Positions 37,916 through 53,496 of a stretch of 64,000 nucleotides of DNA are shown here, piece after piece; the first letter of the stretch is position 1, and every line of letters begins with the position of its first letter. The notes below the pieces were generated by a model. The model was given only the letters and a program-made list of their open reading frames with translations, did no database searches and was not told where the DNA came from. The translations under genes and the position numbers were made by a program. Location of the stretch: positions 868,001 through 932,000 of the forward strand of contig CP073761.1 of NCBI GenBank assembly GCA_018399015.1. The letters run 5' to 3'. The stretch is from Cyanobium sp. M30B3 (lineage in GTDB: Bacteria; Cyanobacteriota; Cyanobacteriia; PCC-6307; Cyanobiaceae).

Positions 37916-37944
37916 CTCCGTACCACCAACGCCTGGCGCCTTCA

Positions 37945-38466
37945 GCCCCGCTGCACAAGCTCCTGGCGCCCCTGCTCAGCCAGGAACCGGCAGCCCAGCT
38001 GATTCGCAGCACGGCAAGGCAGCAGTGGCGCCTGCTGGCGGTGAACCTGCTCAGCAGCGTGGTGGAGGCGCTCAGCGAGGGGGCCACGCTGGCGGTGGTG
38101 TTTCTGGCGGTGGAGGTGCTGGCCGCACCGGAGGGCACGCCCTTCAACTGGGCGACCAATCCGGTGGTGGCCTGGTGGCCGGCGGCGGCGGGCTGGCTCA
38201 ACGCCCTGCCGCCCACGGCGCTGTTCATCAGCCTGCTGGCGCTGGCGGTGCTGCTGCAGGGGCTGCAGAGCCTGGGGCGCTTCGCCAACAACGTGAGCGT
38301 GGGGTATTTCGCGGCCGAATGCCGGGCCGGGGTGACGGCGCGTATCCACAGCCAGGGGCCGGAGGCGATCCGCAACCAGATCGAGCAGAGCGGCCAGCTG
38401 CTGGTGTTGCTGCTGATGGGCGGGGCTTTGAGCGACTGGGGCGAACCTGGATTGGCTCCCCCCTGA
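37945..38466 (+). pseudogene. N-terminal fragment of type-1 (MsbA-like) ABC exporter
   Basis: Reads PLHKLLAPLLSQEPAAQLIR, then RLLAVNLLSSVVEALSEGAT, membrane helices, FANNVSVGYFAAECRAGVTA and GPEAIRNQIEQSGQLLVLLL. This is the transmembrane domain of an ABC exporter with internal deletions, ending in unrelated EPGLAPP and stop. The 5' end merges with the tail of the preceding Rpn hairpin. The C-terminal ATPase remnant lies at 40100–40190. Confidence 0.7.
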
Positions 38467-38568
38467 GCCTCCAGGAGCCCCAGCCCGAACGAACCCCGAA
38501 GCCGGCGCCGCCAACCAACGCCCGATACCAAACGCTCCCTCACGACCTGCAGCCCCAGCACCCGGGAC

Positions 38569-38781
38569 CTACACGCTCACCATCTCCACCGAACTGCTGG
38601 AGGCCGGAGCCACGAAGCCATCACTGGCCAGGCCCTCCAGGTGGAACTGGATGGCGGCTCGAATCTCGTCCAACACGGCCTCGCGGCTGGAGGCAGCGGC
38701 CACACAACCCGGCAGGTCGGGCACATAGGCCGAAAATCCGGTGCCAGCCGGTTCAATCACCACGGCGTAAGTCTTGGTCAT
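38569..38781 (-). CDS. hicB: HicB family antitoxin
   Basis: A 70-residue partial-RNase-H-fold protein: YAVVIEPAGTGFSAYVPDLP, then GCVAAASSREAVLDEIRAAI and a short tail. This is the HicB pattern (short form, without a long DNA-binding domain). It should neutralise HicA. Its gene lies after the toxin with a 4-bp overlap. Confidence 0.9.
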   Translation of the reverse strand: MTKTYAVVIEPAGTGFSAYVPDLPGCVAAASSREAVLDEIRAAIQFHLEGLASDGFVAPASSSSVEMVSV

Positions 38782-38969
38782 CGAAAGGGAACTCCAGACT
38801 GCTTTTCAATGCTGCGCAGGGTGCCGTGCGCCAGTTCATCACTGGGCTTTCCCGCCACCGTAACCCTGCCGGGCCGGATCGGATGCTTGCACTGCCGGTG
38901 GCTTCCGCGGGTCGCCACCAGGAACCAGCCGGCCGCCTCCAGCCGCTTGATCACCACACCAACCTTCAC
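38778..38969 (-). CDS. hicA: HicA family mRNA interferase toxin
   Basis: 63 residues from GTG at 38969: VKVGVVIKRLEAAGWFLVAT, then RGSHRQCKHPIRPGRVTVAG and LAHGTLRSIEKQSG. The HicA dsRBD-like fold and the catalytic His in RGSHRQ are intact. It cleaves mRNA when free of HicB. An in-frame start further upstream (39038) adds non-family residues and is rejected. Confidence 0.9.
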   Translation of the reverse strand: MKVGVVIKRLEAAGWFLVATRGSHRQCKHPIRPGRVTVAGKPSDELAHGTLRSIEKQSGVPFR

Positions 38970-39097
38970 CGCATCCGCCCATTGAGCCCTCAGGCCAGAC
39001 CAGCACAGCAGCGCACACGGGGGCATCCGTGAAAACACGGCTTGTTGGCGAGCCTGCTGAGGCGCTTCCCCCTGAGCCGCCAGGAGCCCCAGCCCGA

Positions 39098-39639
39098 ATG
39101 AATCAGGAATACCGGCGCGTGCTGGCCCCGGTCGCGGGCCAGCCCACAGGGGGCAGCCGCCAGCTGGGCTTCCGTGAGCTGCTCTATTTCGAGCTGATTA
39201 GCAGTCTGAGCGAACAGGGCCTACAGCTCTCGCCCTCGCAGAAACAGGAGGTGTTTGGCTTGCTGGTGCGCCGGACAGGCAGAGCAGCAGCAACTTGCGG
39301 CGGCAGCCGGGCCAATTGGTGCGGCTGGGCCCGGTGCCTTTGAGCCTGGATCTCTCAGCGGTAGGGCGTGTCATCCGCTATCGCTACCAGTTGGTGAGCC
39401 GCCCCCATCAGCTGGTGGAGAGCAATCCATCGATCTGCTCGGGCCAGCCGGTGTTCCGGGGCACCCGGATCCCCGTGGCCGTAGTGGTGGAACAGCTGCG
39501 CGCGGGCACGCCTCGCCAGGAGCTCGAGCTCGACTTCCCCCAGCTGAGCCGTGAGGCTCTCGACTATGCCGAGATCCAGGCCCGCCTGCCCAAGCCACCC
39601 GGCCGGCCGCGCAAAAGCCTGAAGCTGCATTCAGGCTGA
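39098..39639 (+). pseudogene. DUF433 domain antitoxin-like protein, one frame break
   Basis: The first part MNQEYRRVLAPVAGQPTGGS, then FRELLYFELISSLSEQGLQL, is in one frame to about 39280. The rest, beginning LRRQPGQLVRLGPVPLSLDL and containing NPSICSGQPVFRGTRIPVAV, is in another. The latter is the DUF433 motif. One base is missing near 39276–39285, not in an obvious run. Restored length is 180 residues. DUF433 proteins are often antitoxins of PIN-type partners; no PIN gene adjoins, but two small genes follow. Confidence 0.75.
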
Positions 39640-39645
39640 TTTCCC

Positions 39646-39822
39646 ATGCAGTTCAGCCTCAACCGGGGCGGCAGTCGGGCACGGGTGTTCACGTTTCTGG
39701 ATCGCCCCTGGGTGGCCGTGCTCACTCCGGATGACGCCAGGGTGATTACGGTGTATCCAACCGACCAACGCACCGTTGAAGCCCGGAGGGCTGGAGGACG
39801 ATGGCTGTTTCTGAACCGTTGA
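39646..39822 (+). CDS. Small 58-residue hypothetical protein
   Basis: MQFSLNRGGSRARVFTFLDR, then PWVAVLTPDDARVITVYPTD and RWLFLNR. It starts 7 bp after the DUF433 gene and overlaps the next gene by 22 bp. It is basic and mostly beta-like by eye. Position suggests the partner of the DUF433 protein. Family not recognised. Confidence 0.6.
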   Translation: MQFSLNRGGSRARVFTFLDRPWVAVLTPDDARVITVYPTDQRTVEARRAGGRWLFLNR

Positions 39823-40058
39823 CCCTGCCGGATCAGCTGCGGAGCATGCGCCAGTCGGTGGATGCAGACACCGGCGCGATCCTGTTTCGCCATCCCACGC
39901 TCCAGGGCATCCCCGATCTGGTGGTGGAGGGAGACGGCTACACCCTGGAATTCATGGGCCCCACCCTGCTCTGCCTCGACATCATCGATCCAGGAGCCCT
40001 GGGCCGCCTGCTGGCAGAACCGATCAAGCAGCAACTTCCTGTGGGCCTTGGCCATTGA
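39801..40058 (+). CDS. Small 85-residue hypothetical protein
   Basis: MAVSEPLTLPDQLRSMRQSV, then DADTGAILFRHPTLQGIPDL and LEFMGPTLLCLDIIDPGALG. It overlaps the 58-residue gene by 22 bp. It is acidic, while its neighbour is basic, as in many toxin–antitoxin pairs. No domain is recognised. Confidence 0.55.
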   Translation: MAVSEPLTLPDQLRSMRQSVDADTGAILFRHPTLQGIPDLVVEGDGYTLEFMGPTLLCLDIIDPGALGRLLAEPIKQQLPVGLGH

Positions 40059-40190
40059 CTGTCCAGGGCCCGGCCGACCTGGCAGCCTGGCTGGCCTCCC
40101 AGCAGAGTGTGATGGCGGCGATCGAGGGGCTCAGCCGTGAGCTCACGATCGTGCTGAGTGCCCACCGGCTCAGCACCGTGGACCGCTGCT
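40055..40190 (+). pseudogene. Chimera of DUF4351 tail and ABC exporter C-terminal ATPase remnant
   Basis: Reads TVQGPADLAAWLASQQ, an Rpn/DUF4351 tail, and continues VMAAIEGLSRELTIVLSAHR then LSTVDRC. The latter is the end of an ABC ATPase (H-loop His in AHRLSTV). It is likely the 3' end of the exporter whose N-terminus is at 37945. HicAB and the DUF433 group now sit between. Confidence 0.7.
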
Positions 40191-40242
40191 GGCCCAGACC
40201 TGAACAGCCCCGCTACCCTGAACTGACCGCAGGTCTGGGGAG

Positions 40243-40890
40243 ATGACCCTCACCACCAGCCCAGCCACTTCCCCCACTGCTTCGGCAACGACCCTGGATG
40301 CGCTGGCTACGTTGCGGCTGCCGCCCGAACTGCGGCTCACGCCGGAGCAGTTTGCGCTGGTGTGTGCTGAGAACAGGGAGGCGGTGCTGGAACTCGATGC
40401 GGAAGGCCGGCTGATCGCGATGACGCCAACTGGAAGCGAAACCGGAGCGCGCAACTCCAGGCTGGAGATGCGCTTGCTCGTCTGGGCGGATCAGCAGGGT
40501 GGCTGGAAGGTGTTCGGTAGCTCCACAGGCTTCCGTCTTCCCGATGGGTCGGTCTTCAGCCCTGATGCCTCCCTGCTGCGTCTGGACCGCTGGCAGGCCC
40601 TCAGCCCAGAGGAGCGCCGTGGCTTCGCGCCGCTGTGCCCCGATCTCGTTGTGGAGCTGGCCAGCCCCAGCGATGAAGGCCCCCGCGGCCTGAGCGCCCT
40701 GCGCCGCAAGATGGCGGCTTATCAGGCCAATGGCGCTCGCCTGGGGTGGCTGCTGATTCCCCAGGAGCAGGCGGTGGAGGTGTGGCCCGCCAGCGGTGAG
40801 CCGCAGCGCCTGGAGCAGGCTGCGCTGCTGGAGGCTGGTGCGGACTTTCCGGGGCTGCAGCTGCAGCTGGCCGAGATCTGGGCGGGGTGA
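40243..40890 (+). CDS. Uma2 family endonuclease-like protein (DUF820)
   Basis: 215 residues. PELRLTPEQFALVCAENREA starts the domain, with a PD-(D/E)XK-like core: GRLIAMTPTGSETGARNSRL, FSPDASLL and APLCPDLVVELASPSDE, then a Lys in LRRKMAAYQANGARLGWLL. Uma2 proteins are very numerous in cyanobacteria, are predicted nucleases, and have no settled role. The start is ATG at 40243. It follows the ABC exporter remnant. Confidence 0.88.
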   Translation: MTLTTSPATSPTASATTLDALATLRLPPELRLTPEQFALVCAENREAVLELDAEGRLIAMTPTGSETGARNSRLEMRLLVWADQQGGWKVFGSSTGFRLPDGSVFSPDASLLRLDRWQALSPEERRGFAPLCPDLVVELASPSDEGPRGLSALRRKMAAYQANGARLGWLLIPQEQAVEVWPASGEPQRLEQAALLEAGADFPGLQLQLAEIWAG

Positions 40891-40944
40891 GGCGATCTGG
40901 AGGACTTCCCCCCAATCCGCCCTCCCCGCCTGCTGCAGGTCGTT

Positions 40945-41036
40945 CTCGATGGGCTGTTCAGGACTGGCTGGCCGAGGGTCGTCAGGAAGGCCGTCAGGAC
41001 GGGCGAGGCAGCTTCGATGACCCTCCGCCTCCTCGT
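40945..41036 (+). pseudogene. Rpn middle fragment
   Basis: Contains AVQDWLAEGRQEGRQDG in one frame and a following MTLRLL in another, matching the charged hinge of Rpn just before DUF4351. Both ends are cut. Confidence 0.65.
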
Positions 41037-41163
41037 TGGCCACCAACACCTGAGCCACACACACCGCATCTGGTGCCTGCAGCTGCGGCAGTTTGGAGAT
41101 CAACCCAGCTGATGCCAGTACTGCTCTCGGTACCAAACTTGAGCTTCGGGCACTCGCTGGGCG

Positions 41164-41445
41164 ATGGATCAGGAGAACGCGCTCACCTCAGCTGAGCTCA
41201 AGCGCTGTGGGATCGCAGCGATTGAGCAGGCGCTGCAGCATGGCTCTGTTCATCTGTTGAAGCGCAACCGATCAGCGGCTGTGGTGCTGAGTTAACAGCA
41301 CTACCGCCAGCTGCAATTGCAGGCCTCACGAGCTCCTGTGACCGAAGCATCGGCGTTGCAGTGGCTGCTGGCTCTGCCGCCATCCACCAGCCCGCGCAGC
41401 AAGGCTGAGATCGATACGGAGCTGGCGGCCGAGCGCGAGTGGTGA
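41164..41445 (+). pseudogene. PIN-partner antitoxin with in-frame stop
   Basis: MDQENALTSAELKRCGIAAI, then QHGSVHLLKRNRSAAVVLS, a TAA at 41293–41295 (codon 44), and in the same frame QHYRQLQLQASRAPVTEASA to the TGA at 41443. It looks like a Phd/YefM-type antitoxin in which a sense codon became a stop. It overlaps the broken toxin gene by 4 bp. Confidence 0.7.
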
Positions 41446-41674
41446 TTGCCTTCCTCGATGCCAGCGCCTGGATCGTTTTGAGGCGTTATTTGCTCAGCCG
41501 GATCTGCTGGTTGTTGACCTGAGCGGCGCAGTCGTTGAACGGGCGACGCAGTTGCGAGCCACCCATGGACTGCGCACGCCGGATGCCTTGCAGGCGGCGT
41601 GCTGCCTGCAGCTGGGGCCTGGTGCCGTGATGATCACCGGTGATGCGGGCTTTCAACGCCTCCAGGCTTTGTAG
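41442..41674 (+). pseudogene. PIN-domain toxin, internally deleted
   Basis: Begins VIAFLDASAWIV, the first PIN strand with its catalytic Asp. It resumes after a deletion and frame change with FAQPDLLVVDLSGAVVERAT, LRTPDALQAACCL and MITGDAGFQRLQAL. The central acidic residues are gone, so it should be inactive, matching its broken antitoxin. Confidence 0.75.
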
Positions 41675-41717
41675 GTGCGCCTGATTGCCTGCTCCTCATC
41701 CCCAATCTGATTCCAGG

Positions 41718-41758
41718 GCCTAGCCGACCTCGCCGCCTGGCTGGCCGCCCACACCTAA
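41718..41758 (+). pseudogene. Remnant of Rpn/DUF4351 tail
   Basis: Reads LADLAAWLAAHT and stop, the last residues of DUF4351, with no upstream Rpn sequence. The ~230 bp that follow hold no gene I can support. Confidence 0.65.
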
Positions 41759-41988
41759 GGCCTCCCACATCCCAATCTGGTGTCTTCATCCCTGAAAGTT
41801 CTCAGCGCGCCGCTGCGGTCAGCATGGGATCGGGGGGGGGCTGTGGCCGGCCAGCGCATTGATATGGGAGCGCTGCCTGGTGGCCGGCTTGAGCCGCATG
41901 GGGAGCAGGCCACAGGCAGCATCGATGGCATCCGTGCACTGCAGTGACGACGAGCTGGTGGGCTTCCCCCTTAGAAGCCGACGCCGCA

Positions 41989-42279
41989 TCAATAGGCCGA
42001 GTCGTGATCGGGGTGGAGCGAGAGCAACCGCAGCCAGGGGCCATCGCGCCAGGCCACGGCCCGGCAGCTGCGGCTGATCCGCAGGGAATACAGCCGCTCA
42101 CCCGCAGGTCCCTGGCGACTTTGGATCAGCTCCCAACGGAGGCCCTTGCTGCTATGCAGCTGCTCCCAGCTCATCGCCTGAAGCAGGCGCAGGGTCTTCA
42201 GTACAGCCCAGGCGTCTGGCTTGGCCAACGCCAGCAGATTGGCCTGAAACTCGGGGTTGTTGAGGTCGAGCCGAATCAC
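41989..42279 (-). CDS. RelE/ParE-like toxin
   Basis: A 96-residue basic protein: MIRLDLNNPEFQANLLALAK, then DAWAVLKTLRLLQAMSWEQL, GLRWELIQ and RLYSLRISRSCRAVAWRDGP. The strand pattern and the Arg-rich (Y/L)SLRIS-x-x-RAV segment fit RelE-type proteins that act on the ribosome. Its gene overlaps the antitoxin stop by 4 bp. Confidence 0.75.
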   Translation of the reverse strand: MIRLDLNNPEFQANLLALAKPDAWAVLKTLRLLQAMSWEQLHSSKGLRWELIQSRQGPAGERLYSLRISRSCRAVAWRDGPWLRLLSLHPDHDSAY

Positions 42280-42542
42280 CGCATCCCCAGGTGCTGCTCC
42301 AGGGCATCGAAATCGGCGGCGATAGGCGGCGAGGTCATGACGGCCATGGCCCGATCGAGACGCGCGGCGGCTTCCGGTTGATGCAACCAGAGCTCGCTGT
42401 CGGGGATGGTCTGGGCCGTTTTGATCACCCAGACCCCGGGCTCGCTGCTGTCCACCACCACGGTGCGACCAGCGAACTCCTTGCCTAAGGAGATCTGGCC
42501 GCTGGCCCCCACCTGCTTCACAACCTGCTTGGCGGTTTTCAT
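42276..42542 (-). CDS. Antitoxin of the RelE-like pair (AbrB-like start)
   Basis: An 88-residue protein: MKTAKQVVKQVGASGQISLG, then KEFAGRTVVVDSSEPGVWVI and a helical, acidic C-terminus. The VGASGQISLGKEFAG segment recalls AbrB/SpoVT-type DNA-binding loops. Its place just before the toxin with a 4-bp overlap supports the role. ATG at 42542. Confidence 0.7.
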   Translation of the reverse strand: MKTAKQVVKQVGASGQISLGKEFAGRTVVVDSSEPGVWVIKTAQTIPDSELWLHQPEAAARLDRAMAVMTSPPIAADFDALEQHLGMR

Positions 42543-42569
42543 GCTGACTTAGCTTTCATGCCTTCATGC

Positions 42570-42723
42570 TAGGCATTGACATCCTGAGCCGCCAGGCGCC
42601 CCAGCCCGAACAAACCACTCAGCCTCCTGCCGCCAACGGGGATCCACAGGCAGCAAGCCCCGCACGGGCTGCAGCCCCAACTCCAAGCCGCGGCTACCTT
42701 TTCGCCAGTCAGGGTTGCTGCCC
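42570..42723 (+). repeat. Conserved DNA upstream of Rpn gene (copy 2)
   Basis: CCTGAGCCGCCAGGCGCCCC, then AGCCCGAACAAA, GGGCTGCAGCCCCAA and GCGGCTACCTTTTCGCCAG. It matches 35540–35693 in order and spacing. Confidence 0.7.
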
Positions 42724-43575
42724 GTGAACACCGACCGCTGGTTCTACCGCGTCTTCCAGAGCGCCCCCGACCTGATTCGCGCTCTGCTGCCCGGCTCAGC
42801 CGCCGCCGCAAACGCACTGAGCCTCGACCCAGGTGCCCCCGGCGATCAGCTCTACCGTTTTGAAGCTCTGGAAACTCGGAGCTGAGCCACCGCTTCGATG
42901 GCGTCCTCTGGCCTGGTGGTGCTGCTGGAGGTGCAGATGCACCCCGACCCAGGCTTCCGCCACCGACTGGCGGCGCAGAGCTCTCGGTTTCTGCAGAAGC
43001 ACCCGCAGGTGGGGCACCTGGAGGTGGTGGTGATCACGCCACACCAGCGGATCAACCTCGGCCCCACCAATCTGCCCAGGCTTCTGCAAGCGCTCCTGAA
43101 CGAGGTGCACTGGATCAGTCTGGAGGAGCTGAGCCAGCAGCCCAACCTCGATCCCCTGCTGGCGGCCAGCAGTCAGCAGATCCTGGCCAGCCGCCCGGAT
43201 CTGAAAACAGTTGTGCTGCCTATGCTGGTGCAACGGTTTCCCCAGCTGAGCGAGGGGCAGATCATGGTGATCGCCGGCATCCCCCGAGAAGAGATCCGCC
43301 ACACCCGTGCCGTCCAGGACTGGCTGGCAGAGGGCCGCCAGGAAGGCCGTCAGGAAGGCCGCCAAGCAGAGGCGGCCTCTGTCACCCTCCGCCAACTCAA
43401 CCGCCGCTGCGGCACCCTTACGGACGCCACCACCGCCCGGATCCAGGCCTTACCCGTGGATCAGTTGGAAGCCCTGGCCGTAGGCGAAGCCTTCTCCGCA
43501 GGAGTGGCCCTGCTCGACTTCCAGGGCCCGGCCGACCTGGCCGCCTGGCTGGCCGCCCACACATTCAACGCCTGA
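42724..43575 (+). pseudogene. Rpn/DUF4351 gene (copy 2), frame breaks near the N-terminus
   Basis: GTG start, then NTDRWFYRVFQSAPDLIRAL to ALETRS and stop at 42885; about 25 residues are missing or shifted where copy 1 reads LSHRLDGVLWP. The frame resumes at VVLLEVQMHPDPGFRHRLAA and is open to the end, with DUF4351 intact. A 17-residue part around LLNLLTLPVRP is also absent. The remaining 225-residue frame might be made from an internal start, but the N-terminal nuclease part is damaged. Confidence 0.8.
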
Positions 43576-43603
43576 CGCCGCGCCACCAACGCCTGGCGCC
43601 TTC

Positions 43604-43634
43604 AGCCCCGCTGCCTGCGCAGCGGGGCTTCTTG
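43604..43634 (+). terminator. Hairpin terminator after Rpn gene (copy 2), loop inverted
   Basis: AGCCCCGCTG and CAGCGGGGCT form the same 10-bp stem as at 36685, with loop CCTGCG in place of CGCAGG, then TTCTT. The two loops are reverse complements. Confidence 0.75.
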
Positions 43635-43681
43635 CTGCTGGCCCCCCGCACGACCTGCAGCCCCACCCCACCAGCTCCCTG

Positions 43682-44551
43682 ATGCCCGCCACCCGCGTTC
43701 GCCGCGCCACCAGCTCCCGCGACCCCGCCCAGCAGTGGCTGGTGCTCGAGCCCAACCGGATCGAGAAGCAGTACTGGAAAGACCTGTGGCGCTACCGGGA
43801 GCTGTTCGCGATCCTGGCCTGGCGTGACATCACCGTTCGCTACAAGCAGACCGTCATCGGCGTGGCCTGGGCGCTGATCCGCCCGTTCCTCACCATGGTG
43901 GTGTTCACGGTGATTTTTGGGCGGCTCGCCAATCTGCCCACCGAAGGGGATGCGCCCTATGCGGTGCTGGTGTTTGCCGGGATGCTGCCCTGGCAGTTTT
44001 TCAGCACGGCGCTGAGCAGCTGCTCCGACAGCCTGATCGCCAATAGCAACCTGCTCACCAAGGTGTATTTCCCGCGGCTGATCGTGCCGGCCTCAGCAGT
44101 GATCACCAGCTTTGTGGATTTCCTGATCTCCTTTGTGATCCTGGCCGGGTTGATGGTGTGGTTCCAGTGGTGGCCCAGCTGGCGACTGCTCACGTTGCCG
44201 CTATGGGTGGCGGTGGCGTTCGCGGCGAGCATGGGCGCGGGTCTGTGGCTGGCCAGTCTGAACGTGCAATACCGCGACTTCCGCTATGTGGTGCCGTTTC
44301 TGGTGCAGTTCGGCCTCTACGTGAGCCCGGTGGGCTTCTCCAGCGCGATTGTGCCCGAACAGTGGCAGCTGCTCTACGCGCTCAACCCGATGGTGGGCGT
44401 GATCGAGGTGTTCCGCTGGGCGATCATCGGCCGGGGAGCCTTCATCAACCCGCTGGGCTTTGGGCTGTCGATGGCGATCGTGGCCCTGCTGCTGGTCACG
44501 GGCATCCGCCAGTTCCGGCGGATGGAGAAGCGCTTTGCCGATGTGATCTGA
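43682..44551 (+). CDS. ABC transporter permease for polysaccharide export (KpsM/Wzm-like, ABC-2 type)
   Basis: 289 residues with six predicted membrane helices. YRELFAILAWRDITVRYKQT, then VIGVAWALIRPFLTMVVFTV, is the typical N-terminal signature. Later come FAGMLPWQFFSTAL and LNVQYRDFRYVVPFLVQFGL, then YVSPVGFSS. It moves lipid-linked O-antigen or capsule with a Wzt/KpsT ATPase. The ATPase gene normally follows. Here the RES/Xre block follows, and only a fragment of an ATPase remains at 35338. A functional ATPase may lie elsewhere. Confidence 0.92.
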   Translation: MPATRVRRATSSRDPAQQWLVLEPNRIEKQYWKDLWRYRELFAILAWRDITVRYKQTVIGVAWALIRPFLTMVVFTVIFGRLANLPTEGDAPYAVLVFAGMLPWQFFSTALSSCSDSLIANSNLLTKVYFPRLIVPASAVITSFVDFLISFVILAGLMVWFQWWPSWRLLTLPLWVAVAFAASMGAGLWLASLNVQYRDFRYVVPFLVQFGLYVSPVGFSSAIVPEQWQLLYALNPMVGVIEVFRWAIIGRGAFINPLGFGLSMAIVALLLVTGIRQFRRMEKRFADVI

Positions 44552-44625
44552 GCAGACCCACTCCGACCGTCATAGCGCATTCGCTCGAAAGCCCCTAAGA
44601 TCTGTGCATCTGCACGAAGCCTGGC

Positions 44626-44991
44626 ATGGCCGTTCTGGAGCGGCGGCAGGACGCCTCGGCCGCTGATGCTCAACTGATCGCCGAGGCCTGCCTGCGGGCG
44701 GCTGCTGAGGTGGGCCTGTCCAAGGAGGAATTGGGCGCGATCGTGGGCCGGCACCGCACCAGCCTGGAACGCAGCGGCCTGCCGCCCCAGAGCAAGGAAG
44801 GGCAACTGGGGCTGCTGTTTCTACGGGTGATGCGCAGCCTCGATGCCCTGATGGGCTCCGATCCGGAGCTGATGCGCCACTGGCTGGAGCAGCCCAATCA
44901 CCACCTGGGCGAGCAGCCACCAAGCCAGTTGCTGGCTTCGGTGGAAGGCCTGGCGCGGGTGGCGGCCTATCTCGATGCCATGCGTGCTTGA
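44626..44991 (+). CDS. MbcA/ParS/Xre-type antitoxin, first module (intact copy)
   Basis: 121 residues: MAVLERRQDASAADAQLIAE, an HTH (VGLSKEELGAIVGRHRTSLE), then the DUF2384 toxin-binding region (LFLRVMRSLDALMGSDPELM, then HWLEQPNHHLG). It should block and co-repress the RES toxin. A short symmetric site (GTGCA TC TGCAC at 44605–44616) lies 9 bp before the ATG. It overlaps the RES gene by 17 bp. Confidence 0.88.
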   Translation: MAVLERRQDASAADAQLIAEACLRAAAEVGLSKEELGAIVGRHRTSLERSGLPPQSKEGQLGLLFLRVMRSLDALMGSDPELMRHWLEQPNHHLGEQPPSQLLASVEGLARVAAYLDAMRA

Positions 44992-45706
44992 GGCCCATCT
45001 CCAGCCGCTGGCGGGCGCGGTGGTGCGCATCACCGACCGCCAGGGCTACCAGGCCAGCGAACGTTGGACCGATTCACTGCAGGAGCAAGCCCGGCTGGAG
45101 GCCCTGATTGAGCGGGTCAAGCCGCCTGCCCCGCCGGGGCAGCACCGGCTGCTCACCACGCCCTTTCGCTATCCGCCCTTGCGCAGCGGCTCCCGTTTCA
45201 CCGCTGCCGACCAGCGGGAGCTGTTCTATGGCGCCAGGGGCCTGGGCACGGTGTTGGCCGAGCGGGCCTTCCATGCCCTGCGGCTGCTGGAAGGTTCACC
45301 GCTGCCGGCCGGCAAGGTGATCCAGCGCGAGCAAACATCGTTTCAGGTGGAGATCGCGGTGCAGCGGGGCCTGCAGCTGCAGCACTGCCTGAGCGCCGCA
45401 GACCTGGCGGCGGTGACCGATCCCTGCAGCTATCACGCCAGCCAGGCGCTGGGACGCCAGATGCGCCAGCTCGATGTGGAGGCCTTTGAGGTGCCCTCAG
45501 CCCGTGCACCGCTGGAGCCTCCCTGCGTGGGGGTGCTCACCCCAGCAGCGTTTGCCAGCACCCCCTTTGATTTGCAGGACTGGGCGCTGGAGATCCGCCC
45601 CGATGGGGTGACGTTTGCCTCGTTTGGCCTGAGCCAGGTGGTCACGCTCCTGCGGGAGCAGTTCCTGGTGGAAGGCCGCTGGCCTGATCCTGTAGCGAGT
45701 GGATAA
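44975..45706 (+). CDS. RES-domain toxin, first module (intact copy)
   Basis: A 243-residue RES-family NAD+ phosphorylase-like toxin. The active-site surroundings show GSRFTAADQRELFYGARGLG, then AERAFHALRLLEGSP, with conserved Arg, Tyr and Glu expected in the NAD pocket. The Ser region is YHASQALGRQMR. The C-terminus is WALEIRPDGVTFASFG. It is longer than the second-module RES protein (156 residues). Known RES toxins deplete NAD+ and halt growth. Confidence 0.88.
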   Translation: MPCVLEAHLQPLAGAVVRITDRQGYQASERWTDSLQEQARLEALIERVKPPAPPGQHRLLTTPFRYPPLRSGSRFTAADQRELFYGARGLGTVLAERAFHALRLLEGSPLPAGKVIQREQTSFQVEIAVQRGLQLQHCLSAADLAAVTDPCSYHASQALGRQMRQLDVEAFEVPSARAPLEPPCVGVLTPAAFASTPFDLQDWALEIRPDGVTFASFGLSQVVTLLREQFLVEGRWPDPVASG

Positions 45707-45735
45707 GCGAGCCCTCCCCCGTCTCACCCGCCTTC

Positions 45736-45766
45736 GTCATTTGGGGCTAGCATCTCTTCAAATGAC
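45736..45766 (+). promoter_or_regulatory. Inverted repeat upstream of second Xre antitoxin (copy 2)
   Basis: GTCATTTG (45736–45743) and CAAATGAC (45759–45766), identical to the site at 33082–33112. Possible autoregulatory operator separating control of the second module from the first. Confidence 0.45.
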
Positions 45767-45787
45767 CCCGCCCGGAGCGTTCTGCCC

Positions 45788-46255
45788 TTGGCACCCGCGA
45801 TCCCCGTCCCCGCGCTGGAAGCAGCCCAGGATGCAGACCTGAATCAAGGCTTCTGGCAACGCGCTGCCGAGCTCGGCGCCCTGGATGAGCAGCAGCGCCT
45901 GGCGGCGATTGAGCGGGGCTGGAGCAGCAACTGGCTGGCGGCCCTGCGCCAGCACCTGCACCTCAAGCCGGCAGATCTGGAGCCACTGCTGGCCCTCTCG
46001 GAGGCCACGATGGCGCGCCGCAGCCGCGAGCAGGCGGCGCTGGATCTGGTGGCTTCTGAGCGGCTGGACCGCCTGGTGGAAGTGATCAGCCTGGCCTACG
46101 GGGTGTTTGAGCAGCCATCCAGCACCGAGGCCTGGCTCAAGGCACCCCACCCGCTGCTGCATCAGGCGAGCCCACTGCAGCACTGCCGCACGGCGATCGG
46201 CGCGGGCCAGGTGCGGCGGCTGCTGCAGGCGCTGGAGCAGGGCGCACCGGTGTGA
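45788..46255 (+). CDS. MbcA/ParS/Xre-type antitoxin, second module (copy 2)
   Basis: 155 residues, identical to the product of 33134–33601. It starts with TTG 82 bp after the first RES gene and overlaps its own RES gene by 4 bp. The N-terminal half (LAALRQHLHLKPADLEPLLA) is HTH-like; the C-terminal half is DUF2384-like. Confidence 0.85.
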   Translation: MAPAIPVPALEAAQDADLNQGFWQRAAELGALDEQQRLAAIERGWSSNWLAALRQHLHLKPADLEPLLALSEATMARRSREQAALDLVASERLDRLVEVISLAYGVFEQPSSTEAWLKAPHPLLHQASPLQHCRTAIGAGQVRRLLQALEQGAPV

Positions 46256-46722
46256 GCGAGGGTGTGCTTCGGGCCTGGCGGCTGAGCAAGGCCCGCTATG
46301 CCGGTGATCTCACGGGCCAGGGAGCGGCCCGCGATGGCCAGCGCTGGAACCAACCCGGTCAGCGAGCGGTGTATCTGGGGATGACACCCGAGATCACGGT
46401 GCTGGAGGTGCTGGTGCACCTCAACGGCGTGCTCAGCGCCCCGCTGGCGCTGTGTGGCTACGACGTGCCCGATACGCCTGGGCTGATCGCCGAAGCCGAT
46501 CCCATCGCTCTGCCTGCGGGCTGGAACGCCATCCACCATGGCCACGCCAGCGCAACGTTTGGTGGCGACTGGCTGCGGGTAGGAGAGCAGCTGGGCCTGG
46601 TGCTGCCCTCGGTGGTGGTGCCCCAGGCCCGCAACCTGTTGCTCAATCCCCTCCACCCAGCGATGGCAGCGGTGACGCTGGTGCACCAGGAGCCCTTCCA
46701 GCTGGATCAACGGCTGGGCTGA
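46252..46722 (+). CDS. RES-domain toxin, second module (copy 2)
   Basis: 156 residues. The core RWNQPGQRAVYLGMTPEITV and the end LVLPSVVVPQARNLLLNPLH are shared with copy 1. The final ~20 residues differ (AAVTLVHQEPFQLDQ against AQVALVHQEAFQLDQ). This part alone has accumulated DNA changes, as if exchanged with another homologue. Confidence 0.88.
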   Translation: MSEGVLRAWRLSKARYAGDLTGQGAARDGQRWNQPGQRAVYLGMTPEITVLEVLVHLNGVLSAPLALCGYDVPDTPGLIAEADPIALPAGWNAIHHGHASATFGGDWLRVGEQLGLVLPSVVVPQARNLLLNPLHPAMAAVTLVHQEPFQLDQRLG

Positions 46723-46760
46723 GCCGACCACCCCAGAATGGAAGCAGAACTGGCCCTGCC

Positions 46761-47237
46761 ATGGACCTTTCCTTCCTGATCGAGAGGGCAACGCATCAGC
46801 CACCTCCACAGCCCAGCCAGCAGCGCTGGTTGGAGCGGCGTGAGACCTGGTTGCGGGAGCTTGAGCAGCTGTCCCGCCAGGTGCAGCAGTGGCTGAAGGA
46901 GGCCGGTGTGTCCGCAGCTGCCTTTCAGCCCTATCAGGAAGCCCGCAACGAGGAGTGGATCGGTAGCTACCTGGTGAACTGCTGGCTCGTGGACATCGGC
47001 TCGTTCCGGCTGCGCTTTGATCCGCGCGGAACCCTGATGGTGGGGGCCTGCGGGCGGGTGGATATCAGGAGTTCCCAAGCGGGCACCCCGGTGGTGAAGC
47101 TGATTGCGGAGGAGGGAGATCGCTCCGGGGATCCCTGGCGCTGGAGTATCTATTGCGATGAGGCGGGACTGGATGACCTGGAGTTGAATCCAGAAAACCT
47201 GGCTCAGGCCCTCAGCCTGCTGATGCCAGAGGGGTGA
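46761..47237 (+). CDS. Hypothetical accessory protein
   Basis: 158 residues from the ATG at 46761: MDLSFLIERATHQPPPQPSQ, then a coiled N-terminal half (ERRETWLRELEQLSRQVQQW) and a beta-rich C-terminal half (IGSYLVNCWLVDIGSFRLRF, then GTLMVGACGRVDI). Family not recognised. It directly follows the RES/Xre block and is 7 bp from the next gene, so the two may form a unit. Confidence 0.6.
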   Translation: MDLSFLIERATHQPPPQPSQQRWLERRETWLRELEQLSRQVQQWLKEAGVSAAAFQPYQEARNEEWIGSYLVNCWLVDIGSFRLRFDPRGTLMVGACGRVDIRSSQAGTPVVKLIAEEGDRSGDPWRWSIYCDEAGLDDLELNPENLAQALSLLMPEG

Positions 47238-47244
47238 GGCGTGG

Positions 47245-47562
47245 ATGGAGCTCGACAGTGGCGGAAATTGGAAAACACTCCAATTGGTTCGAAGCAAGCA
47301 TCAGTTCTTTATCGCCAGCATTGAAAGATATAAGCCAGCTGCGCAAATCAAATCCAGCCAGGGCAGAGTTCTTCCTGTCGAGCTGACATTACTGGTGCGC
47401 CTCTCTGGGAAAGATTGGGATGCTGCTGCGGAGGTTCTGAAGGAGGCCAGCGAGCGGCAGGCCATCATGCACCTGTTCGCCTGTTTTGAGCGGATCATCC
47501 GCGTGGATGGCCAACTGAGAGGAGAGCAACAGTCCCGCCAACATCATGCTTTTTTGACGTGA
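47245..47562 (+). CDS. Hypothetical accessory protein
   Basis: 105 residues: MELDSGGNWKTLQLVRSKHQ, then FFIASIERYKPAAQIKSSQG and a helical end (AAEVLKEASERQAIMHLFAC). It is basic, with lower GC than the surrounding genes, which suggests recent arrival. No domain is recognised. Confidence 0.5.
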   Translation: MELDSGGNWKTLQLVRSKHQFFIASIERYKPAAQIKSSQGRVLPVELTLLVRLSGKDWDAAAEVLKEASERQAIMHLFACFERIIRVDGQLRGEQQSRQHHAFLT

Positions 47563-47644
47563 AGATCCTGCTCAACACCCTGCTGCGCCTGCGCTCCTCC
47601 CACGCTGACTGGGGCGTGGTGAGGTGCGTTGGGTGTTGTTGCTT

Positions 47645-47673
47645 CGCTTGACCAGACCTGGTCTGGTCAAGCG
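47645..47673. repeat. Perfect 29-bp palindrome with the TTGACCAGACC motif
   Basis: CGCTTGACCAGACC and GGTCTGGTCAAGCG are perfect 14-bp arms around one base. It lies between the accessory genes and the convergent conserved gene. The half-site TTGACCAGACC recurs in other intergenic spots of the window (about 25795, 26338 and, reversed, 20300). It could form a strong hairpin; no T-run follows. Confidence 0.9.
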
Positions 47674-47738
47674 GCGAACACATTGTCCCTGCGGAGTGGC
47701 AGCTTGCTCAGCAGTGGTGCTTCAGCCGGGCGCGACGT

Positions 47739-48257
47739 TCAGCCCAGGTCGAAGTAGCGCCTGCCGTCGGTCCGCTTGAGTGCGGCCCGCCGCGCCGAGC
47801 GCCGGCTGAACTGGCTCACGCTGGGGTTGGGCACCAACGGATCCACATGCGCCACCTGCTGCCACAGGTCGCGCGGCGCCCAGCGCACGTCGTGGCGCAC
47901 CTTGTCGTGGCGCACCACATGGCACCAGCGGCTGGAGCCGCACTCCGGGCAGAACAGCTCCTCCAGCCACTCGTTGCTCAGCACCAGCACCGGGTGGGCC
48001 TGGATCACCAGCCGCGCCCGCTTGTCGCTCATGCCCCGCTGCTTCAGCTCCTCCGGTTGCAGCAGGTGCAGGTAGTACTTGCGGCCGTTGCCGGAAATGG
48101 GCGTGTCCGGGTGCGCCGGGCAGAACAGTTCCCGCCCCCTGGGCCGGCCGCGCTGGCGCCGCGGCTTCCGGCTGGGGCTGTCCCCAGCTTCGGGGGCGCT
48201 GGCTGGGGGAGTGTCTGGAGTCGTTGCTGGGGAGGTGCTGGACCTGTTTTCGCGCAT
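47739..48257 (-). CDS. Conserved cyanobacterial protein with zinc-ribbon-like cysteines
   Basis: 172 residues. A Pro/Arg-rich N-terminal region is followed by ELFCPAHPDTPISGNGRKYY and EWLEELFCPECGSSRWCHVV, where Cys and His could bind zinc. RDLWQQVAHVDPLVPNPSVS, then QFSRRSARRA, is a stretch I have seen in cyanobacterial hypothetical proteins. The function is unknown. It is transcribed toward the palindrome at 47645. Confidence 0.7.
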   Translation of the reverse strand: MRENRSSTSPATTPDTPPASAPEAGDSPSRKPRRQRGRPRGRELFCPAHPDTPISGNGRKYYLHLLQPEELKQRGMSDKRARLVIQAHPVLVLSNEWLEELFCPECGSSRWCHVVRHDKVRHDVRWAPRDLWQQVAHVDPLVPNPSVSQFSRRSARRAALKRTDGRRYFDLG

Positions 48258-48490
48258 CCCTTCGCCTGGATGAATAGCTTCACCAGTACCAATCTTACCT
48301 GCTCAAAACGGGCCCATCCGTTGGTTTCGGTTTAGAGTGATTTGATACGGCTGCAGATAGTGTTCCCTCCAGGCCCATTTCTGCTGTTCGGTTTGGCGGC
48401 TCCCAACGCCCTCACTACCCCCGCTGGGCCCAGCTGGAGCGTGCGGCCAGCACCCCAGCAGGCATCGCCCCCCCACCCCCCACCCGGCTG

Positions 48491-49318
48491 GTGCCCGTTG
48501 GCCAGGGGGCACCGCAGACGCGCCTTTTGCCCACCGCTTCCCAGCCCACCGCAGTCGCCGGGGAGCCGGAGCCCCAGGAAACCCTGGCTGCGGCCCCCAC
48601 GCTTCGCCCCTACCGGCTGCGCCCCTCCCTGGGTGGCGGCAAGCCCACCGGCTACGTGGGCGGCTGGGGCGACTACTTCATCGCCGGCACCGCTGCCACC
48701 CCCGACCGCCTGCGCGAGAACAACGCGCCCGATGGCTCGGTGAATGCCGGCTTCGCCATCGGCGACCCCGTGCGGGCCATCGGCGTGGAGCTGTACTGGG
48801 GCACGGGCAGCATCAACAACTTCAATGCCAACGGCGGCTTCGGTTTTTCGGCCGGCCGCCTGCTGGTGAACCGCTGGAACCTGCAGGTGGCCGCAGCCGG
48901 CGGCGTGATCGATTTCTATCAGTACGGCGATGAGCCCGGCCGCCGCTTCAGCAGCCCCTACGGCGCCTTGACCTTTGCCACGCCCCTGCGCCCCCGCAAT
49001 CCCCAGTTCCAGCAGGTGTTGCAGTTCACCGTGGGTGGCGGTGGCAAGGGGTTTGCCCAGATCGATTCCAACTTCCAGATCTCCGACGGTGGCTTCTTCG
49101 CGGCGGCAGGGGTGGAGGTGCTGCCCAACCTGGGCGTTTCCGCCGGCGTGAGCAACCGCAGCACTGTGGTGAACCTCTCTTACATCCCCTTCCGCAACCT
49201 GCCGATCTTCGTGAACCTGGCCGCCGCCGATGTATTCGACGCTACCCCTTACGGCGCTATAGGCCTGCTCACCGTGGGCTGGAGCGACAACTGGCGCAAC
49301 GGCTTTTTTACCCAATAG
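48491..49318 (+). CDS. Outer-membrane beta-barrel-like protein, possible 5' frame break
   Basis: A 275-residue frame with GTG start. Alternating strands such as GFAIGDPVRAIGVELYWGTG, VLQFTVGGGGKGFAQID and GAIGLLTVGWSDNW suggest a beta-barrel. It lacks a signal peptide in this frame. A signal-like stretch (VFPPGPFLLFGLAAPNAL, from GTG 48360) lies just upstream in another frame. Loss of one C from the runs at 48468–48474 or 48476–48481 would join them. The likely full gene is therefore 48360–49318. Family not recognised. Confidence 0.65.
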   Translation: MPVGQGAPQTRLLPTASQPTAVAGEPEPQETLAAAPTLRPYRLRPSLGGGKPTGYVGGWGDYFIAGTAATPDRLRENNAPDGSVNAGFAIGDPVRAIGVELYWGTGSINNFNANGGFGFSAGRLLVNRWNLQVAAAGGVIDFYQYGDEPGRRFSSPYGALTFATPLRPRNPQFQQVLQFTVGGGGKGFAQIDSNFQISDGGFFAAAGVEVLPNLGVSAGVSNRSTVVNLSYIPFRNLPIFVNLAAADVFDATPYGAIGLLTVGWSDNWRNGFFTQ

Positions 49319-49413
49319 CTGACAAGGGTCAGCCAGGGTCGCCTCAGGTGTTCTAATTCAGCAGAAGGAAGATTTTTTAGTCTCTTATGAGACCCTTCGC
49401 TACGGACCAAGCC

Positions 49414-49665
49414 ATGAAGCGTCTTTCCATCCCTCGCATGGTTGCCCGTGCGGCCCTTGGGTTTGCCGTGATGGCCATCTCAGCATCGGCAGTCCACGCC
49501 AGGCCACCTCGGCCCACGGCGCCAGCGCCACCGCCACCAGCACCACCTTCGTCCGGTGTCATTACGCGACCGACCGTAAGCCCTCCACAGGCAGGCACTA
49601 ACACCGGGTTTGCATCATTTGGCGCCACTCAGACACAAAATAATTTTCCTCCGCCCCCTAATTAA
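49414..49665 (+). CDS. Small secreted proline-rich protein
   Basis: 83 residues. A signal peptide (MKRLSIPRMVARAALGFAVM, then AISASAVHA, cleaved about there) leads a Pro-rich stretch (RPPRPTAPAPPPPAPPSSG) and a polar tail. An in-frame ATG at 49387 is less likely. No domain is recognised. It probably works outside the plasma membrane. Confidence 0.65.
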   Translation: MKRLSIPRMVARAALGFAVMAISASAVHARPPRPTAPAPPPPAPPSSGVITRPTVSPPQAGTNTGFASFGATQTQNNFPPPPN

Positions 49666-49737
49666 TCCGCGAGACCTTCCGGCTCTTCATCATTAGTTCT
49701 CTTCACGCTGTTATTCATTCATTCATTTATTAAACCT

Positions 49738-50493
49738 ATGCTTGCCTCCAAGCTGTTTCAATCAGCGGTCGCTGCCAGCCTCGCCATTTCTGTGTTTCAG
49801 GCAGCCCGGCCAGCACATGCTTTTTCGCCATCTAATGTATTCCCGTTCATTGAATCCCGCGGGCCTGGAGTAGGTGGGTCTCTCAACACGATTGGGACTA
49901 ACGATGGAAGTTATGGTTATTTCTTTGATGTCACAGGCGATCAAAGGGTCGTGAACGCTCTGGGTTTTTCAGCCCAAGACAACTGGACGAACACCAGCCT
50001 TGCCTACACAGTACAGCTTTGGTCGTACTTGGTGGACGAAAACGATCCCGACCCGAACACCGCCACCACTTATACGACTATCGCCCAACTCACGTTCAAT
50101 CCCAGCGACCCTGACTTGCTCCTTGTTGGGACTGACTAATGGAAACCTCTCCCGGCTCCAATCAGTCTTGCAGCTACCTCCGGCGACCCCTTGACGGGTT
50201 ATGTCATTGGAGCTATAGGTAGTTTTAATGATAATCCAGATTCCACTCTGCGCGGTAACTTTATCGAATCTGGAGCAGACGTAACTTTTTCAACTCTGGC
50301 TGCCTACGACGCCAACGGTTTTAATATTCAAGGTTTCCAGGACTTCCCTGTACCTGTTTTTGATGGGGGTCAGGTCGGTTATTGGAATGCCAATTTATCT
50401 ATTGATGTCCCTGGCCCGCTACCGCTTCTCGGTGCTGGTTCTGCTTTCCTGTGGTCCCGCCGCCTCAAGAGCAAAATTAATTCAAAAGTCTGA
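49738..50493 (+). pseudogene. PEP-CTERM-like secreted protein with in-frame stop
   Basis: A signal peptide (MLASKLFQSAVAASLAISVF, then QAARPAHA) leads a beta-rich domain. At codon 134 there is TAA (50137–50139). The same frame then continues WKPLPAPISLAATSGDPLTG to the tail VPGPLPLLGAGSAFLWSRRL, then KSKINSKV. The tail is a cyanobacterial PEP-CTERM-like sorting signal. Without the stop the protein would be 251 residues. A nonsense mutation, a sequencing error or programmed readthrough are all possible; a mutation or error is simplest. Confidence 0.75.
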
Positions 50494-50519
50494 TTGAAAC
50501 GTGTAATCAATCCTTGGGG

Positions 50520-50543
50520 GGGGTGCAGTTGCGCCCCTTTTTT
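50520..50543 (+). terminator. Rho-independent terminator after the PEP-CTERM-like gene
   Basis: GGGGTGC and GCGCCCC pair (one G·U) around AGTT, followed by TTTTTT. It lies 27 bp after the stop at 50493. Confidence 0.8.
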
Positions 50544-50606
50544 GTTGCATCAAAAACGCATGTTGAAACATTCAACATTCGACCTTAGTTGAAAAAATGG
50601 AGCCAC

Positions 50607-50642
50607 GCGGACTCGAACCGCTGACCCCCTGCATGCCATGCA
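50607..50642. repeat. Attachment site (att) copy distal to tRNA-Ala(GGC)
   Basis: 36 bp identical to 53433–53468 inside the tRNA gene. The similarity extends left to 50598 with one mismatch, so the 3' ~45 nt of tRNA-Ala are duplicated here. It marks the far edge of an integrated element. Confidence 0.92.
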
Positions 50643-50747
50643 ATAAATGGCACCCCCTGAGACACCGCTCACCAGCTCACAAAACCGCTGCAGGGCAAGG
50701 GTTCTCGGAGAAGCGGTTGACCATGTGAATGCCTCTGGATGCATCGG

Positions 50748-50778
50748 TTTTGCGCTTTTTTGCGCTAGGTTTTGCGCT
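50748..50778. promoter_or_regulatory. Cluster of TTTTGCGCT repeats near the left end of the element
   Basis: TTTTGCGCT occurs at 50748, 50758 and 50770. The last two are 12 bp apart. The same pair with the same spacing is found near the other end (53328 and 53340). Likely arm-type sites bound by the integrase or an excision factor. Confidence 0.6.
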
Positions 50779-50824
50779 ACCGGCGGCCTGGGGCTGACCC
50801 GCTGCCTTCTTTCCTGCGGGCTCC

Positions 50825-52015
50825 ATGCCACGTGTCAACCCCGGCCTCACGCCCCCCTGGGTCCGGGCCCTGCGCGACCAGATCAAGCTTGAGCACGGGC
50901 GGGGTTGATCGATTCGAGAGCAGGCCGGGAAGGTCAAGCTCTCCCGTCGGTTTTCTGATGGCTCGACCAGCAGTGTGACCCTCGATATCCATTGGGGACC
51001 CCGTTGTGGAACGTCCGTGCTCAGCGCCATGGCGGTGCTGCAGGAACGGATGGAAAACCAGCAGCTGGGCCTGGCGGAGGCTCATGCCCTGCTTGCAGAC
51101 GGGCGCGCGCCGGGTAATGACGATGCCGTCGATTGGCCCGCGGTCGCCGCGTCCTTTCTTGAGTCGCGGCAGGACCGACGCTCCACGACCCTCGTGGACC
51201 TGCATCGGCGTGTGGGGCTGGCGCTCAAGACGCTTGAAACACGGCCACGGCCGCAGGACGGTCGCAGCCTGATGCGTGCCTATGCCAAGCAGCATTTCAA
51301 GCGAAGCCCCCCTGGAGGGCAGGGCCGCAAGCGCCACCTCGGTGACGTCGCTGCTTTCCTGCGTTTTGCGGTGACCCGGGCGGGGGCGCCTGCCCGTTGG
51401 ATGCCCCTGGAGGGTGAGCAGCTGGAGGAGCTGATCGGAACGGCAGATCCCGGTGTGGGTGCTGACGACCTGACACCCCCGGTCAAACCCGAGCAGCTTG
51501 CGTCCCTGCTCGATCATCTGCAGCAGGACAAGAACGACGAGCTCTGGCTCGCTGTGGCCCTGGTTGGCCTGTTCGGACCCAGGCCGGCTGAGCTTGCCGC
51601 CCTGAAGGTGGTTGATGGACGACTGCGCGTCGGCGGCCAGGTCAAGCGCAACCGCCGCACGATGAAGCAGCCCAAGCCCGATCGCCTCGTGCTGCCCCTG
51701 GATATCCCGGGCTGAGAAGGTGAGGGGCAGCGTGCCCTTGATCTCCAATCTCCATGCCAGCGGCAAGGTGAAGCTCCCCTATGCGATCCGCACGGCCATC
51801 AGGGGTGGTGAGTTCAAGCCAGTTGGTGATGCCTTCCGTCAGCTGCTCGAGCGTCTACCCCACTGGCAGGGGATCGTCGAGGCCACCCCAGGTCTCACTC
51901 CCTATTCGCTGAGGCACGGCTATGCGTGGCGTGCGCACAAGTGCTACGACCGCAGCCTCAGCATTCGGGACGTGGCTGCCCTCATGGGGCATAACCCCGC
52001 TACACACCACCGTCA
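50825..52015 (+). pseudogene. Tyrosine recombinase/integrase, decayed
   Basis: The frame starts MPRVNPGLTPPWVRALRDQI and meets TGA at 50906–50908 (codon 28). It continues SIREQAGKVKLSRRFSDGST to LPLDIPG and a TGA at 51713. After a +1 shift it goes on SGKVKLPYAIRTAIRGG to PYSLRHGYAWRAHK and DVAALMGHNPATHHRH. The H-x-x-R box (LRHGYAWR) and the GHN…H box are visible; the final catalytic Tyr region is cut off by the junction with the next fragment. Two nonsense codons plus a shift mean it is dead. Confidence 0.85.
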
Positions 52016-52278
52016 CTTACGTCTTCGGGAAGCAGCAGGTCACGATCCGCCCGGCAGCTGCCTGGAACTTCCTGCTGCCCGATCGCCCCGCCGGCCAGGC
52101 GATCCGGGCACTCACCTGGCTTGGCCCGGATCAGGCCGCAGCAGCCCTGCCAGAGCTCCGCCGTGCGCTGCCGCCGGTGGAGTGGGATGCCCTGCTCTCC
52201 GTCCGTGCCGAGCTGCCCCTGTGGCTGGCGGAGCTGCTGAGTGAACAGCCGCTCGAGCCGCACAAGGCTCGTGGCTGA
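52016..52278 (+). pseudogene. AbiEi-like antitoxin, C-terminal fragment
   Basis: The frame YVFGKQQVTIRPAAAWNFLL, then GQAIRALTWLGPDQAAAALP and LSVRAELPLWLAELLSE, resembles the end of AbiEi/DUF6088 antitoxins. The N-terminal winged-helix part is missing; the sequence joins the end of the integrase fragment instead. It overlaps the AbiEii gene start by 38 bp, the usual order of AbiE systems. Confidence 0.6.
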
Positions 52279-53223
52279 GGCCTGGTTCGCGCTTTCCCCA
52301 GAGGACCAGACGGAAGCCCTGGCGGTGGCTGCTGCCGAATCCGGCTGGCCGGCGAACCTGCTGGAAAAGGACATCTGGGTGGTCTGGGCGCTGCAGACCC
52401 TGGGGACAGAGCAGCAGTTGCTGGAGACCCTCACCTTCAAAGGGGGCACCTCCCTCTCCAAGGCCTATGGGCTGATCGATCGCTTCTCGGAAGACGTCGA
52501 TCTGACCCTCAACATCCAGCACCTCTGGCCTGAGGTTGACCTGACTCCGGCAGTCAATCCCAGCCAGGCGGACAAGCGCCGCAAGGACGCAGACAGAAAG
52601 CTCAAGCAGTGGGTCCGGGAGATCCCCCTGCCGCTGCTCCAGGTTGCTGCGGCTGCAACCGGTGTCACCCTTGAGCTGGTGCTGGAGCAGTTGAGCTGGT
52701 GCTGGAGCAGTCCGAAGCTGGCCGCCGCCAGCCACCCACCATCGTCATCCACTACCAACCGCTGATCCCGGCGCCAGATCACAGCTCCGGGTATGTGCGG
52801 CCGACGCTGCGGCTGGAGTTCGGAGCCCACTCCACCGGCGAACCGCATGGGCCGATGCCCATCTCATGCGAAGCGGCGACCCATCTGGCGATGCTCGACT
52901 TCCCGGCCGCCAGGCCACTGGTGATGGATGCCAGGCGCACCTTCCTGGAGAAGGCCGCGGCCATCCGTGACCGGCCCCTCGCCGTTGAGGTGGCGCAGCA
53001 CAAGGAGGACTTCTGGCGTGCCACGGATGCCGATGGGCAGCCGATCAACTACAGCCAGGTGATCAATGGCCAGCTGCAGCTGGTGCCGACCGCTGCTGCG
53101 AGGGAGGATCTTGAAGCGGACTACAGGGCCATGACCGACTCCGGGATGCTGCGCGGTGAGATCCCGGGCATCCCGGAGCTGCTGGAGCAGCAGTGCAATG
53201 CCATTGCCCGCATTGTCAGTTGA
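52241..53223 (+). pseudogene. AbiEii nucleotidyltransferase toxin, disrupted by a 20-bp tandem duplication
   Basis: The N-terminal part has LEKDIWVVWALQTL and the nucleotidyltransferase motif LTFKGGTSLSKAYGLI, then RFSEDVDL. At 52671–52690 the 20-mer TTGAGCTGGTGCTGGAGCAG is repeated exactly at 52691–52710, which shifts the frame. Removing one copy gives LVLEQSEAGRRQPPTIVIHY and an intact 320-residue protein to 53223. AbiEii is the toxin of the type IV AbiE phage-defence system. Both partners are broken here. Confidence 0.88.
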
Positions 53224-53279
53224 GCCGCCAGGCCGATACGTCTTAGTGCCAAGGGGGTGGCGACGTTTTTTCGCTACGT

Positions 53280-53348
53280 AGCGCAAAACGGGTCGAGCCC
53301 CGGCTCAAGGGCAGCTGCTTGCCTCAGTTTTGCGCTGGATTTTGCGCT
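53280..53348. promoter_or_regulatory. Cluster of TTTTGCGCT repeats near the right end of the element
   Basis: AGCGCAAAA at 53280 (reverse orientation), then TTTTGCGCT at 53328 and 53340. The 12-bp spacing matches the left end (50758 and 50770). Candidate integrase arm sites. Confidence 0.6.
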
Positions 53349-53423
53349 ACCGGGCAGGATCGCGGCTCTGCGGGCAGCCTGAACAAAAGAGAAGACCCTT
53401 GCAGCGCAAGAGGTCTGACTGAA

Positions 53424-53496
53424 TGGAGCCAAGCGGACTCGAACCGCTGACCCCCTGCATGCCATGCAGGTGCTCTACCAGCTGAGCTATGGCCCC
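53424..53496 (-). tRNA. tRNA-Ala (GGC anticodon)
   Basis: A 73-nt cloverleaf on the minus strand: GGGGCCATAGCTCAGCTGG at the 5' end, anticodon stem-loop CTGCATGGCATGCAG, T arm GGTTCGAGTCC, 3' end TTGGCTCCA. It has the G3·U70 alanine identity pair. It is intact because the element carried a copy of its 3' part. Confidence 0.97.
53433..53468. repeat. Attachment site (att) copy within tRNA-Ala(GGC)
   Basis: 36 bp identical to 50607–50642, covering the anticodon loop to the T arm of the tRNA. This is the usual place for tyrosine-recombinase integration. Confidence 0.92.

Follow-up and report, generated by a model that had tools for sequence, protein, structure and literature searches.

The tRNA-Ala(GGC) locus

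The window analysed here is a 64-kb stretch of the Cyanobium sp. M30B3 genome (contig CP073761.1, positions 868,001 to 932,000). On the 3' side of a tRNA-Ala(GGC) gene lies a relic of about 2.8 kb (50598-53423), in which an integrase gene and an AbiE gene pair, all broken, stand between two copies of the tRNA end. The features of the locus are:

30330..50595: outer 20.3 kb of inserted DNA, as compared with the empty sites of genomes G001, G004 and G010; not part of the integrase element
50596..50642, plus strand: distal att copy, the displaced 3' part of tRNA-Ala(GGC)
50748..50778, plus strand: left arm, three TTTTGCGCT direct repeats (50748, 50758, 50770)
50825..52017, plus strand: tyrosine integrase pseudogene
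52017..52018: deletion junction, integrase gene joined to abiEi
52018..52278, plus strand: abiEi (DUF6088-type antitoxin), 3' third only
52274..53223, plus strand: abiEii pseudogene (AbiEii nucleotidyltransferase-like toxin; PF08843, PADLOC AbiEii)
53280..53348: right arm, TTTTGCGCT at 53280 (minus strand), 53328 and 53340 (plus strand)
53422..53468, plus strand: proximal att copy, within the intact tRNA gene
53424..53496, minus strand: tRNA-Ala(GGC), intact

An initial sequence-only reading had the element bounded by a 36-bp direct repeat of the tRNA 3' region. This is correct, and the full repeat is longer: 46 of 47 bases are identical between the att copies, with 36 exact bases after the mismatch. 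No equivalent was found in 100 shuffles and the chance expectation is about 1e-21. The att copies run from the 3' end of the tRNA to the anticodon loop, stopping at a near-symmetrical core, TGCATGCCATGCA, and the same end point is seen in G009, G197, G198 and G250. A restored tRNA gene at one end and a displaced fragment at the other are the standard signature of tRNA integration (PMC4383910). As in the islands defined by Islander (PMC4383910), the tRNA gene is intact, the displaced 3' fragment has the same orientation, an integrase gene lies between them, here as a pseudogene, and the site is empty in some relatives.

Empty sites and the surrounding insertion

Relatives with an empty site, for which the sequence-only reading had suggested looking, are found among the congeners. 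In G001, G004 and G010 the tRNA gene is separated from a conserved block by 0.1-0.35 kb, and the stretch examined showed no second att copy. The block was pointed to by a noisy all-against-all tblastx comparison and then confirmed with blastn. None of the 12 congeners searched carries the relic DNA at this site; it is not core genome shared by all relatives without att repeats.

In the window genome the conserved block begins at 30329, so that the insertion measures 23.1 kb; the relic makes up its inner 2.8 kb. An att copy was sought at the outer edge near 30.3 kb and was not found. The outer 20.3 kb contain export, toxin-antitoxin and DUF2887/DUF4351 genes, some of them repeated. A RES/Xre-type toxin-antitoxin pair lies in a 2-kb segment that occurs twice, with 99% identity between the copies (32071-34068 and 44725-46723). 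At the first of these, the C-terminal domain of the antitoxin is fused to a polysaccharide-export (Poly_export/SLBB) protein (30983-32335). Just outside the distal att copy, an AT-rich gene with a PEP-CTERM-type-looking tail (49738-50493) has an in-frame stop at 50137-50139 and is probably another pseudogene.

The integrase pseudogene and the putative arm repeats

The integrase had been described as carrying two nonsense codons and a shift, and these are present: the nonsense codons are at 50906-50908 and 51713-51715, and a tandem duplication of 7 bp near 51734-51747 puts the rest out of frame. To these lesions a terminal truncation can be added, as homology to intact integrases stops at 52017, immediately before the codon for the catalytic Tyr. 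The complete set of catalytic residues needed by a functional mobile element is therefore missing.

An uninterrupted homologue of 425 aa, with 85-86% identity, was found in a scan of named genomes. It is encoded in two draft genomes, those of an uncultured cyanobacterium (L089) and a Cyanobium sp. (L090), and the intact versions with the same integrase that the sequence-only reading had proposed to search for thus exist. The intact integrase has no Pfam match at the limits used; it was classed by PHROG matches, a weak match to a XerC-like recombinase of known structure and the catalytic motifs in the alignment. No relatives of it were found among viral contigs or in the phage and plasmid collections, and phage matches to the window DNA are at the tRNA only. 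On the branch of the pseudogene dN/dS is 0.13, equal to that of its intact sister (0.13), with no relaxation. This indicates that most of the divergence is older than the loss of function; either the decay is recent or the counts are too small to reveal it.

The exact sequence TTTTGCGCT occurs six times in the window, three times at each end of the relic. The spaced pair TTTTGCGCTNNNTTTTGCGCT has only two copies in the whole 3.18-Mb genome, one per relic end, and among 196 other genomes searched there is a single copy, adjoining tRNA-Ala(GGC) in G073. The TTTTGCGCT repeats are putative arm-binding sites of the integrase.

The AbiE pair

That both genes of the AbiE pair are broken was also seen at the outset, to which the loss of the 5' part of abiEi is now added. 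What remains of abiEi is the last ~80 codons, corresponding to positions 116-192 of 202 in the PADLOC AbiEi profile. In abiEii there is a frameshift caused by a 20-bp tandem duplication (52671-52710), and 111 bp are missing at about 52964-52969; intact homologues are 353-405 aa. The relic does not have the two intact coding regions of an AbiE system, which are present in G055, G197, G198, G215, G250 and G372. On the abiEii branch dN/dS is 0.50, against 0.24 in the intact sister, a difference that is suggestive and not significant (p = 0.12).

The lesions could be errors of sequencing or assembly, the genes being intact in the organism. The number of lesions is all that speaks for this. Against it, the genome is a single contig and 99.99% complete, the neighbouring lexA is full length, and read errors do not typically produce a gene fusion, a 111-bp deletion or perfect tandem duplications of 7 and 20 bp. 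Moreover, G073 independently has a decayed abiEii at the same tRNA. An artefact is scarcely credible.

In two published accounts, both stabilisation of elements and phage defence are described for type IV toxin-antitoxin pairs of this kind (PMC7725324; PMC11062541). As element cargo, AbiE could serve either defence or element maintenance. The pair was most likely once an element-borne type IV toxin-antitoxin or abortive-infection module, keeping the element in place, blocking competing phages, or both. The remnant most likely has no function today.

The probable parent element and deletion junction

In both draft genomes with the intact integrase (G197 and G198) the left end of the element reads att, the same three TTTTGCGCT repeats, the integrase gene, a small gene and a gene for an 849-aa Prim-Pol/PriCT_2/DUF3987 protein. 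The small gene has no Pfam or PHROG match and, judged by its size and place, we take it for a xis-like (excisionase) gene. On another contig of the same two genomes, the right end reads abiEi, abiEii, four repeats, tRNA-Ala(GGC) and lexA. When the relic is compared with G197, G198 and G055, the homology switches at 52017/52018 (query 1458/1459), where the left end stops and the right end starts. This suggests that the relic is most simply the product of one internal deletion in a larger element.

Three observations count against this explanation. In neither G197 nor G198 do the left and right ends share a contig; the matching arm arrays suggest that they belong to one continuous element. In addition, the AbiE DNA of the relic is nearer to that of G055, which is not at this tRNA (90%), than to that of G197 and G198 (81%), which implies that cargo has been exchanged. 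The third is the dN/dS of the integrase branch, with its lack of relaxation against the intact sister.

The separate contigs would also suit a history in which there was never one element, and two side-by-side elements at the same tRNA, one with the integrase and one with AbiE, were merged by a deletion between them. Tandem arrays do exist at such sites. In G085 (L084, G085:C1:958000-977900) there are two tRNA-Ala(GGC)-type att copies 12.4 kb apart, each followed by its own full-length integrase gene, an arrangement that is a tandem accretion of elements. However, the same TTTTGCGCT repeats are found at both ends of the relic and at the ends in G197 and G198, the spaced arm pair is otherwise absent from the genome, there is no third att copy inside the relic, and G250 holds an integrase scrap together with AbiE between one att pair. 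A merger of two elements is therefore unlikely.

The relic is thus best seen as the dead remnant of a larger tyrosine-integrase element of the G197/G198 type at tRNA-Ala(GGC), shaped by one internal deletion and further lesions, a reading to which we give a probability of about 0.8. From the anatomy of the att copies, a large element would have entered the tRNA gene, its own copy replacing the 3' part and the original being displaced as the distal att. This parent would have had arm sites, integrase, xis-like gene and primase-helicase at the left end, and abiEi-abiEii and arm sites by the tRNA at the right end. A single deletion at 52017/52018 would have joined the middle of abiEi to the integrase gene at a point immediately ahead of the catalytic Tyr codon, removing everything between the ends and disabling integrase and antitoxin together. 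With the integrase inactivated, the remnant is unable to excise by its own integrase. The two nonsense mutations, the 7- and 20-bp duplications and the 111-bp deletion have also accrued, before or after the fusion, and the att and arm sites are still readable.

The size of the parent bears on the initial description of the relic as what is left of a small defence island. That it is dead, integrated at a tRNA and equipped with AbiE is borne out. The small island is not supported, as the intact relatives are large and the 2.8 kb are best explained by the deletion that fused the two ends. The left contig of G198 runs for 17 kb from att to the contig end, with replication and virion genes. Farther on in this contig (L130, G198:C57) are genes for a terminase, a sigma factor, a portal, a scaffold and a head protein that is 46% identical to that of cyanophage PSS2. 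The right contig (L128/L129, G198:C34) has tail-fibre-like genes as well as Gam-like and Rad52-like genes next to AbiE, and this Gam-Rad52-AbiE neighbourhood is also found in several other genomes. The parent of the relic was probably prophage-like, as judged from one draft genome, G198. No virion genes were found within 50598-53423, and the relic is not itself a prophage.

The G198 element is a candidate temperate phage of freshwater Cyanobium. Terminase homologues are present in 55 of 300 genomes of the family, with up to four matches per genome. Outside the window, the window's own genome has a second phage-like cluster (L190, G000:C1:664000-683500), with an 851-aa ORF that is primase-like at its start and a terminase homologue (63% to the terminase of G198).

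Further stages at this tRNA

Several stages of erosion are found at this tRNA in other genomes. In G250 the two att copies stand 2.2 kb apart; abiEi and abiEii between them are intact, and the integrase gene is reduced to a 74-bp scrap. The G215 mini-element, about 2.25 kb long, has no integrase gene; it retains the left arm repeats, an intact AbiE pair and some 15 bp of the distal att. A second abiEii fossil is present in G073, where part of abiEii is kept and an insertion separates it from the tRNA-proximal arm pair; in our reading of the translation, the inserted gene may encode an IS66-like transposase.

The relic might still be mobile, as a non-autonomous, CIME-like cassette on which a related integrase could act in trans through the att and arm sites. 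In favour of this, it has kept the two att copies and five or six of the arm repeats, and AbiE mini-elements of similar size occur in other genera. However, the sole other integrase match in the relic's own genome is a distant one, at 36% across some 100 residues. G250 has no left arm sites, G215 has lost most of the distal att and the left junctions of the two differ, so these look like separate deletions; in both, the AbiE homology sets in a little upstream of abiEi, at almost identical points. Mobility of this kind is very unlikely, more so than a merger of two elements.

Homologous integrases with an att pair and other cargo are found at this tRNA in G009 and G201. The cargo consists of Hma-like and kinase genes in G201 and, from the translations, apparently of type I restriction and copper genes in G009. 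The integrase gene is at the tRNA end in G009 and at the far end in G201 and in the window.

It can be proposed, tentatively and with somewhat more doubt than confidence, that in freshwater picocyanobacteria a temperate-phage-like element has its graveyard at tRNA-Ala(GGC), where AbiE is repeatedly the last working part to be kept. A large element would become a mini-element without integrase and then a fossil, since the pair resists loss or still protects the host.

Comparison with known systems

The relic is ordinary in kind and its documentation is unusually good. As a rule, a remnant is recognised only by its repeats and broken genes. For this one tRNA, the intact ends of the parent can be compared directly with the deletion junction, with empty sites and with several stages of erosion. 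Such a comparison makes it testable which cargo outlives its mobile element. To our knowledge, prophages have rarely been reported in freshwater picocyanobacteria, and the finding suggests that this group harbours a family of integrated elements of phage-like character.

With the Islander-type tRNA islands, which have a tyrosine integrase and an anticodon-loop att (PMC4383910), the relic shares the restored tRNA gene, the displaced 3' fragment, the internal integrase and the crossover in the anticodon loop. It differs in the decay of integrase and cargo to pseudogenes and in the loss of most of the parent. The AbiE type IV toxin-antitoxin or abortive infection systems have the same abiEi-abiEii order and the same PADLOC AbiEi/AbiEii and Pfam AbiEii matches, whereas both genes of the relic are broken.

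The tycheposons of picocyanobacteria, as described in PMC10872708, are similar in tRNA association, tyrosine recombinase, variable cargo and host group. In contrast to them the G198 relative encodes virion genes, and the likeness need not mean a common integrase family or membership. A further comparison is with the picocyanobacterial prophage-like elements represented by the left contig of G198, for which cyanophage PSS2 provides the nearest protein from an isolate. These share the integrase family, the att site and the left-end arm repeats with the relic, which differs in keeping no virion gene.
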